Shown piece by piece: positions 1-49,581 of a stretch of DNA of 64,000 nt (positions are counted from its first letter, which is position 1; every line of letters begins with the position of its first letter). The translations under genes and the position numbers were made by a program. The stretch comes from an uncultured Candidatus Melainabacteria bacterium (GTDB lineage: Bacteria > Cyanobacteriota > Vampirovibrionia > Gastranaerophilales > Gastranaerophilaceae). Where the stretch lies: assembly GCA_947361615.1 (NCBI GenBank), contig CANAJP010000001.1, positions 1-64,000 on the forward strand, in the 5' to 3' direction. The notes under the pieces were generated by a model. That model did no database searches. It was given only the letters and a program-made list of their open reading frames with translations, and had not been told where the DNA came from.

Positions 1-86
1 CTCATGCAAGCCAACCCGCGACTGCGCTGTCTAATACGCCACTCACAAGACTCGCGCATGTGCCTTATCGCGAGTCTTGCTCGGAC
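1..86 (-). ncRNA. structured RNA-like repeat, copy A (truncated by window edge)
   Basis: Reverse complement GTCCGAGCAAGACTCGC...GCGAGTCTTGTGAGTGGCGTATTAGACAGCGCAGTCGCGGGTTGGCTTGCATGAG, near-identical to B and C. Confidence 0.55.
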
Positions 87-1413
87 ATTAATAATTTTAA
101 TAAATTTACTCTTTTTATCAGGCTGCGCAAACGCATACGAACTAAATCTTGAATACTGGGAAAACTATCAAGACCCTTATTTGAACGGATATTTGCGCGA
201 CCTTTATGATGGAAATAAAGATTTAAAAATTGCAAAACTAAATTCTTTGCAGGCACAGAATAATATTAAAATGCAGTTTTCAAACCAGTTGCCATACCTT
301 GGTTTCAGCGGAAGCTACAACTGGGCGGCACACGCTGCACAGCAACAGTTCGGCCAGCTTGTAATCCCTGATTACCATCAATACAACCTGCTTATGCCGC
401 TTGCAATGTCCTATGAAGTCGACATCTGGGGCAAAAATTACCTCAAAACCAAAAGCGTGAAAATGGTTAAAGAGATGATTGAACAGGATGAGCGCAGCGC
501 CTATATTTCGATAACATCAAACTTTGCAGGTGATTATTACAACCTAATCAAAATCAACCGTCTTTTATCAAATATGAAAGAAATTCACGAAATCGAACTT
601 GACCTTGTTGCAAAAATGGAAAAAAAATACGCCTGCGGTCTTGCGACAATAACCGATGTTTTAACAGAAAAACAGGAACTTGTGAATATCGAAATGGACT
701 TGAACCTGCTTGAAAAAGACCTTGAACTAATCAAAGATGAACTTATGGTTCAACTCGGAAACAGAAACCTGCACGAGTTTGAAACACTTGCATACGACGA
801 GGTTAAACCATTCGATGTTCCGCAGGAAATTCCCTCAGAAAGCATTCAGGAAAGACCTGACCTTATAAAAACTGAATATTACATCAAAAAAATCGGGATT
901 GATGTAAAAGTTGCACGCCGTGAATTTTTGCCAAAATTCACTCTTTTCGGACAATTCGGGTTTAATGCCTACAGTTTTGCTAGACTTTTTGCGCCGGAAA
1001 CAGTGCTAGGCCACCTCGGCGTTATGCCGCAATTAGACCTTTTTACCGGCGGCGCAAAGAAAGCTAACTTAAATCTCAAAAAACACGAGTACAAAAAAGC
1101 CCTTGAATATTACGAAAAAACAATTCTAACGTCGCTTCAAGAACTCAACGACGCGCTCATAAGTCTTAAAACCTGCAAGGCAAATTACGACAAAGATTTA
1201 GAAAAAGTTTCACTGGAACGCGAAAAATACAGACTCACACAACGTCAATTTGAAATCGGTGCGATTTCAGAGTTGGACAAACTTCTCGCACGCAAATACG
1301 AACTTAAGCTTGAACAAGAACTTGTCAACCAGAAAATTAACTACGTAATCTCAACAATTAACCTCTACAAAGCTCTTGGCGGAAAAAACTATCTGCAATC
1401 GGGCGATTTATAG
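4..1413 (+). CDS. TolC/NodT-family outer membrane efflux lipoprotein; true start uncertain (ATG at 58 possible, or the ORF may extend left of the window)
   Basis: Signal peptide with lipobox-like LFLSGC; long alpha-helical OEP-type sequence (LKTKSVKMVKEMIEQDERSAYISITSNFAGDYYNL; ERPDLIKTEYYIK). Confidence 0.82.
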   Translation: MQANPRLRCLIRHSQDSRMCLIASLARTLIILINLLFLSGCANAYELNLEYWENYQDPYLNGYLRDLYDGNKDLKIAKLNSLQAQNNIKMQFSNQLPYLGFSGSYNWAAHAAQQQFGQLVIPDYHQYNLLMPLAMSYEVDIWGKNYLKTKSVKMVKEMIEQDERSAYISITSNFAGDYYNLIKINRLLSNMKEIHEIELDLVAKMEKKYACGLATITDVLTEKQELVNIEMDLNLLEKDLELIKDELMVQLGNRNLHEFETLAYDEVKPFDVPQEIPSESIQERPDLIKTEYYIKKIGIDVKVARREFLPKFTLFGQFGFNAYSFARLFAPETVLGHLGVMPQLDLFTGGAKKANLNLKKHEYKKALEYYEKTILTSLQELNDALISLKTCKANYDKDLEKVSLEREKYRLTQRQFEIGAISELDKLLARKYELKLEQELVNQKINYVISTINLYKALGGKNYLQSGDL

Positions 1414-4543: not shown

Positions 4544-4714
4544 ATGGCAGAAGTTAAAGTAGGCGAAAACGAAAGTATCGAAAGCGCATTAAGACGTTTC
4601 AAGAAAAAAATCCAAAAAGCTGGTATCCTTTCTGAAATCAAAAAACGCGAAAGATACGAAAAGCCAAGCGTAAAAAGAAAACGCAAATCTGAAGCGGCTA
4701 GAAAACGCAAGTAA
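4544..4714 (+). CDS. rpsU: 30S ribosomal protein S21
   Basis: [66 protein letters not shown] upstream of ATG 4544 (the supplied ORF start is too far upstream). Confidence 0.96.
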
Positions 4715-4726
4715 TTTCGGTGTGAA

Positions 4727-4833
4727 GCCACGGGTTGACCTGCGGGAGCAGGGCAAGCAGGTGGCGGAACATAACGTCAGCGACGTTTCAAATTTGCCAA
4801 CGGTAAAGCCGTTGAGGCAAATTTGTCAGGAGC
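4727..4833 (+). ncRNA. structured RNA-like repeat, copy D (GNRA hairpin domain plus downstream hairpins)
   Basis: GCCAC-GGG-TTG-A-CCTGC-GGGA-GCAGG-G-CAA-GCAG-GTGGC, then AACGTC/GACGTT and CAAATTTGCC/GGCAAATTTG hairpins, then TCAGG. Confidence 0.55.
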
Positions 4834-4851
4834 TTTTGATTATAAAATATA

Positions 4852-4890
4852 GCAAAGAACATCGAATTTTCATTCGATGTTCTTTTTTGT
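4852..4890 (+). terminator. Rho-independent terminator after rpsU / copy D
   Basis: AAAGAACATCGAA-TTTTCA-TTCGATGTTCTTTTTTG. Confidence 0.85.
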
Positions 4891-12291: not shown

Positions 12292-12321
12292 TTTTATTCT
12301 CTTTAATTTTACACAGTAATT

Positions 12322-12439
12322 GCCCGAGCAAGACTCGCGATAAGGAATGTGAGCGAGTCTTGTGAGTGGAGTATTAGACAGCGCAGTCGCGGGTTGGCTT
12401 GCGTGAGCAAGACAAGCAGGCGACGAAGAACTGCTTTTT
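12322..12439 (+). ncRNA. structured RNA-like repeat, copy B
   Basis: CAAGACTCGC/GCGAGTCTTG hairpin plus GTCGC-GGG-TTG-G-CTTGC-GTGA-GCAAG-A-CAA-GCAG-GCGAC; 3' AAGCAG...CTGCTTTTT. Confidence 0.6.
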
Positions 12440-49493: not shown

Positions 49494-49581
49494 TGTCATC
49501 CCGAACTTGTTTCGGGATCTGGCCAACGAATACCGATAGCTTGCAACGCGGGATAGATGCTGAAACAAGTTCAGCATGACA
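49494..49581. repeat. short palindromic TIR element (88 bp)
   Basis: TGTCATCCCGAACTTGTTTCGGGATCT ... AGATGCTGAAACAAGTTCAGCATGACA. Confidence 0.75.

Follow-up and report, generated by a model that had tools for sequence, protein, structure and literature searches.

REP, BIME and REPIN elements, mobilised by RAYT (an IS200/IS605-related Y1 transposase), are short, strand-specific intergenic hairpins present in tens to hundreds of copies (PMC3733652). They adjoin the 3' ends of ORFs and can provide the stop codon, GTAG REPs included (PMC3733652). The repeat family described here, a copy of which lies behind rpsU in the window (the whole stretch of 64,000 nucleotides analysed), is alike on both counts: its copies are hairpins of this kind and number, and they too adjoin ORF 3' ends and sometimes provide the stop codon. 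It is unlike REPs in lacking a conserved GTAG/CGTC tag; no unpaired GTAG or CGTC tag is present, class II copies starting with GCGTNAGCC (N variable) and class I copies with TGTCCGAG. It also differs in its two-hairpin bodies of 100-145 nt, in caps that can be exchanged, and in an internal loop, a mismatch and a GNNA loop that do not vary; of the seven genomes of the genus, six lack RAYT.

Rickettsia palindromic elements (RPEs) are palindromes of 105-146 bp with stable folds, found in intergenic regions, in tmRNA and, in frame, within proteins (PMC2229807). The likeness is one of behaviour only: the cap hairpin called alpha here lies in frame inside dapF of another MAG (L065), and copies occur upstream of tRNA and tmRNA genes whose 5' ends are copied. 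The families belong to different phyla and probably differ in sequence, and neither exchangeable caps nor the alpha architecture is described for RPEs (PMC2229807). BOX/RUP, ERIC, Correia (NEMIS) and other small non-autonomous repeats are likewise dispersed between genes and able to fold as transcripts (PMC2229807). The present family has a different sequence and different modules, and the class I junctions examined show no terminal inverted repeats with TA target duplication. BOX elements are modular. The repetitive hairpin-forming elements and GC clusters of mitochondrial genomes are mobile hairpins too, and likewise spread into intergenic DNA (PMC2800124, PMC4478555). The family resembles them in this, and differs in residing on a bacterial chromosome and carrying a conserved non-helical motif.

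With many copies, a stable hairpin and variable orthologous sites, the family falls within the broad class of dispersed mobile palindromic repeats. The evidence is best read as a REP/RPE-like family that is new and has modular caps, not previously reported in the open PMC literature; in open PMC papers no description of a modular cap architecture was found, nor anything relevant on repeats in Gastranaerophilales/Melainabacteria.

The starting point is a hairpin immediately 3' of rpsU. Its letters and coordinates, as given in the earlier note, are exact, and the fold is present at 4727-4765; the stretch named there, 4727-4833, contains a second hairpin besides alpha. The features of the locus, by window position and strand, are as follows.

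4544..4714, + strand: rpsU (ribosomal protein S21), the insertion host gene; 56-aa product in 39 of 40 relatives
4719..4833 (model match 4709-4833), + strand: element D, class II repeat; R3 91.4 bits (window search, E 8.7e-21)
4727..4765, + strand: alpha cap hairpin of D; R2 58.4 bits, and covariation
4789..4825, + strand: second class II hairpin of D, CAAATTTGCC...GGCAAATTTG, with an apical AACGG/CCGTT stem; from the fold
4854..4885, + strand: hairpin resembling an intrinsic terminator, downstream of D

D is a class II unit inserted directly past the rpsU stop codon, starting a few nucleotides beyond it. Its alpha cap consists of a GCCAC/GTGGC outer stem, a GGG/GCAG internal loop, TTG/CAA, an A.G mismatch, a 5-bp stem and a GGGA loop. 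Other class II copies also have a second hairpin at the same position, with different stems. Because D lies between the rpsU stop codon and the terminator-like hairpin, it should be part of the rpsU transcript. It would then form a hairpin in the 3' UTR of the mRNA and might mildly affect 3'-end stability, and the insertion may be tolerated because of this position between stop codon and terminator.

D and E belong to class II, and A, B and C to class I. The alpha coordinates given earlier for B (12386-12424, +) and E (63407-63446, -) are likewise exact.

1..88, - strand: copy A, class I, cut by the contig end at the window start; R1 69.9 bits, 3' truncated
12320..12438, + strand: copy B, class I, alpha cap 12386-12424; R1 124.4 bits
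34692..34810, + strand: copy C, class I, alpha cap 34758-34796; R1 126.1 bits
63317..63459, - strand: copy E, class II, alpha cap 63407-63446; R3 66.8 bits, R2 61.5 bits

Copy B is laid out as a P1 hairpin, the linker GAGTGGAGTATTAGACAGCGC, the alpha cap and the tail AAGAACTGCTTTT. Copy E has a CCGCC/GGCGG closing stem, lies directly past the stop of an MFS-type gene with a terminator-like hairpin downstream, and has an orthologous copy in L111. In copy C (L003 1414-1532) the P1 apex reads TCACGTACCTTATC where the other copies have GATAAGGNACNTGA; it is inverted, as though it had been turned round while the arms stayed in place.

The same modules recur throughout the genus. At a counting threshold of E < 1e-6, the window's genome holds at least about 47 class I and at least about 19 class II matches and the richest congeners at least 81 and at least 61, respectively, the class II model also catching copies nested in class I. 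Class I copies consist of TGTCCGAG, the P1 hairpin, whose arms are compensated, then GAGTGGCGTATTAGACAGCGC, a cap and GGAGAACTGCTTTT. Class II copies consist of the 5' tag GCGTNAGCCGGTG (in full copies), the alpha cap, the linker CAYWACGTCAGCGACGTTTC, the second hairpin and GTCAGGAGC; a variant has the CCGCC/GGCGG closure instead of the GTCAGGAGC end. The alpha cap is thus a portable module carried by at least two scaffolds, and caps are interchangeable, class I scaffolds also bearing beta and gamma caps. By our own count, class I caps in the window's genome comprise about 25 of alpha type, 13 of beta type (pattern GCGC...GGTTCA...GGAA) and 2 gamma. Class II copies also occur nested within the apical loops of class I alpha caps, and tandem arrays of copies exist.

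The fold of alpha is strongly conserved. Compared with shuffles, 4719-4833 folds with z = -5.3 as RNA and -7.4 as DNA. Among 42 distinct relatives, 99.6% of the cells of the 13-pair alpha structure are paired (77.8% in shuffles), a percentage somewhat favoured by the collecting pattern, which demanded most pairs. The count of double-sided changes is less affected: they occur in 12 of the 13 pairs and in 119 cells, against 27.8 in shuffles, and none of 500 shuffles is equally high. The compensatory stem changes proposed in the earlier note therefore hold far beyond shuffles. Slid control versions of the structure collapse, and RNAalifold, unaided, returns the same 13 pairs. The supposed fixed parts fared unevenly: the internal loop RG(N)G/GCAG, the purine-purine mismatch and the GNNA loop are constant, whereas the TTG/CAA inner helix, listed with them, varies with compensation (TCG/CGA, CTG/CAG, CAG/CTG). 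The stems, which drift fully compensated, are separated with unusual clarity from the fixed non-helical parts (internal loop, R.R mismatch, GNNA loop), which would be protein recognition sites on a folded single strand. Recognition in this folded form is fairly likely.

The motif, which the earlier note did not recognise as a named family, is absent from Rfam. Rfam gives no match in the window at the gathering score and only chance-like, below-threshold matches at a permissive threshold; in 14 loci with class I, class II and other copies, only the flanking tRNA/tmRNA matched. Covariation among paralogous palindromic copies alone does not distinguish RNA from single-stranded DNA. In the stems, G.T pairs outnumber A.C mismatches (9:1, 4:1 and 5:1 in separate counts, all of small numbers), which weakly favours a folded single strand and selection on that strand.

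Orthologous sites vary in their content. At the rpsU site, the congeners G001, G003 and G005 have a short plain 3' UTR with the terminator only and no element; in G002 and G004 this place is taken by a class II copy whose stems differ; the sequence of G006 is unlike either, and the other genera shown have no element. The spacers of copies B and C are both empty in G001, G002, G003 and G005, and in G004 each holds a reversed class I copy, beta-capped in the case of spacer C. Comparison of spacer C between G004 and G002 reveals a clean insertion, and no target duplication is clear there. Variation among congeners extends to the rpsM-rpsK and tuf sites, the rpsM site being without an element in G003 and G005. 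Loss could explain some of the empty sites. Copies are mostly intergenic and occasionally lie within genes; in G002 the gene of a RAYT-type transposase is broken by a class I copy. Alpha occurs in 28 of 148 genomes of the phylum, all in the window's own family (f1, Gastranaerophilaceae), with 22-42 matches per genome in four sampled genomes of the genus and 0-15 in other genera. Viral contigs gave five pattern matches, none with the surrounding element.

Because copies are dispersed, vary at orthologous sites, disrupt one gene and stand in frame in another, a mobile repeat is, on this sequence evidence, a very probable identity. That D is one copy of a small, non-autonomous mobile hairpin repeat family confined to Gastranaerophilaceae is, taken as a whole, probable. 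For the same reasons the conserved fold recognised in the earlier note stands as a single-strand fold, but not as a locus-specific RNA. A caution follows for similar cases: covariation among paralogous copies can mimic a regulatory RNA where the object is a mobile repeat.

Several elements adjoin RNA genes. Alpha-bearing elements lie directly upstream of tRNA-Asp, tRNA-Arg and tmRNA genes (L050, L104, L107, L114, L123; L110, L126, L294). On either side of them stand direct duplications, about 17-50 nt long, into which the 5' end of the RNA gene falls. These duplications do not fit the duplication-free class I junctions. In addition, a terminator, CAGGGGGAATACAAACTTCCTG plus T-run, is conserved across several species, and the class II copies that come after it differ in their caps (L313, L352, L353); this site is a hot spot of repeated insertion or cap exchange.

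The placement of class II copies raises the question of function. In the genus, 39 of 50 copies follow their upstream gene in sense, and about half of the 50 start -16..+4 nt from its stop codon, where random intergenic sites would give 3.1%. The resulting P of ~4e-23, which rests on gene calls made by a simple script, is overstated since copies at sites shared across congeners are not independent; the effect is still large. Some copies provide the stop codon themselves (GCG-TAA or GCG-TAG), and others begin directly past a terminator T-run or a tRNA. Class I copies in co-directional spacers have no orientation preference (7 sense, 10 antisense). The preference of class II for the sense orientation at stop codons exceeds what simple insertion tolerance predicts; a function at the RNA level, or insertion by a route linked to RNA, may lie behind it. 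Class II could be a candidate functional 3'-UTR RNA element (e.g. an mRNA-stabilising or processing hairpin past stop codons) that selection maintains even though it arose as a mobile repeat. Its placement, including past intrinsic terminators and tRNAs, hosts such as rpsU, rpsM and tuf, the stable fold as RNA and the position of D ahead of a terminator all speak for this; the same cap in unoriented class I copies, the empty rpsM sites and an rpsU site empty in three congeners and all other genera examined speak against it, and on balance it is somewhat unlikely. A dedicated cis-regulator of rpsU, which the conserved fold directly 3' of the gene might suggest, is extremely improbable: dozens of copies stand beside unrelated genes, and the reading is refuted by the lack of conservation at rpsU within the genus. 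Plain look-alike intrinsic terminators or attenuators are very unlikely as well. Class I does end in CTGCTTTT past a GC-rich stem, but D and E are each followed by a separate terminator-like hairpin, class I orientation to genes is mixed, and termination needs no conserved internal loop, mismatch or 120-nt scaffold.

By analogy with RAYT for REP, a trans-acting enzyme would copy or move the element; mobilisation specifically as single-stranded DNA has somewhat less than an even prospect. An unrecognised REP/RAYT family, with the palindromes being REPs moved by a Y1 tyrosine transposase, would account for the size, copy number, strand-specific hairpin, position at ORF 3' ends and stop-codon supply, and RAYT-like genes do exist within Gastranaerophilaceae. 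It is nevertheless unlikely. Y1_Tnp/RAYT is absent from the window's genome (G000) and from G001 and G003-G006, the single RAYT among these seven genomes (G002) is the one broken by a class I copy and has its own GTAG-type repeats, and the corresponding motif, GCGTNAG, does not conserve the REP tag. DEDD_Tnp_IS110 was found in none of the seven genus genomes; Y1 transposase and IS110 are thus rejected as mobilisers, being missing or broken in the genus. Tyrosine recombinases are present, and no integron core boxes (GTTRRRY/RYYYAAC) were seen by eye. An autonomous element bounded by two copies was also sought, and the two candidate pairs contained only ordinary genes. A single reverse transcriptase (RT) is conserved in the genus and lies beside a short Avd-like protein (L364 1210-3314), probably a diversity-generating retroelement, and a class I copy stands directly upstream of this RT gene. 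RTs also occur in alpha-free genomes, so that no link to mobilisation is evident.

The reading as a mobile repeat family can be extended to a more specific scheme: alpha, beta and gamma caps would be swapped between scaffolds, and class II would be inserted in sense at stop codons, terminator T-runs and tRNA ends by an RNA-linked route with a novel enzyme, giving many mRNAs a standard folded 3' end. This scheme is quite unlikely as a whole. The sense placement at stop codons offers a natural test, through filled and empty congeners, of the effects of repeats on mRNA 3' ends. The family would add a lineage-specific, highly active hairpin repeat to the non-photosynthetic gut relatives of cyanobacteria.

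Other observations concern the same genomes. The MAG JAMPIJ01 was deposited under the name Fusobacterium sp. NALB_7963_5, but its locus sequence (L031 / L313) is identical to that of G003; its label looks wrong because G003 is a member of the window's genus. A separate palindrome, GTGAATGAGTTGCGGAGCAACTCCCGCTCACGC, is nested in the apical loops of class I and class II hairpins (L018, L022, L033, L077, L078). A second dispersed palindrome, GATCCTGAAACAAGTTCAGGATGACA, occurs with stem variants in the window (26304-26457, 49494-49581, 63120-63271, 30261-30286), and has many copies in congeners; most of its copies form REPIN-like inverted pairs separated by about 60-130 bp.
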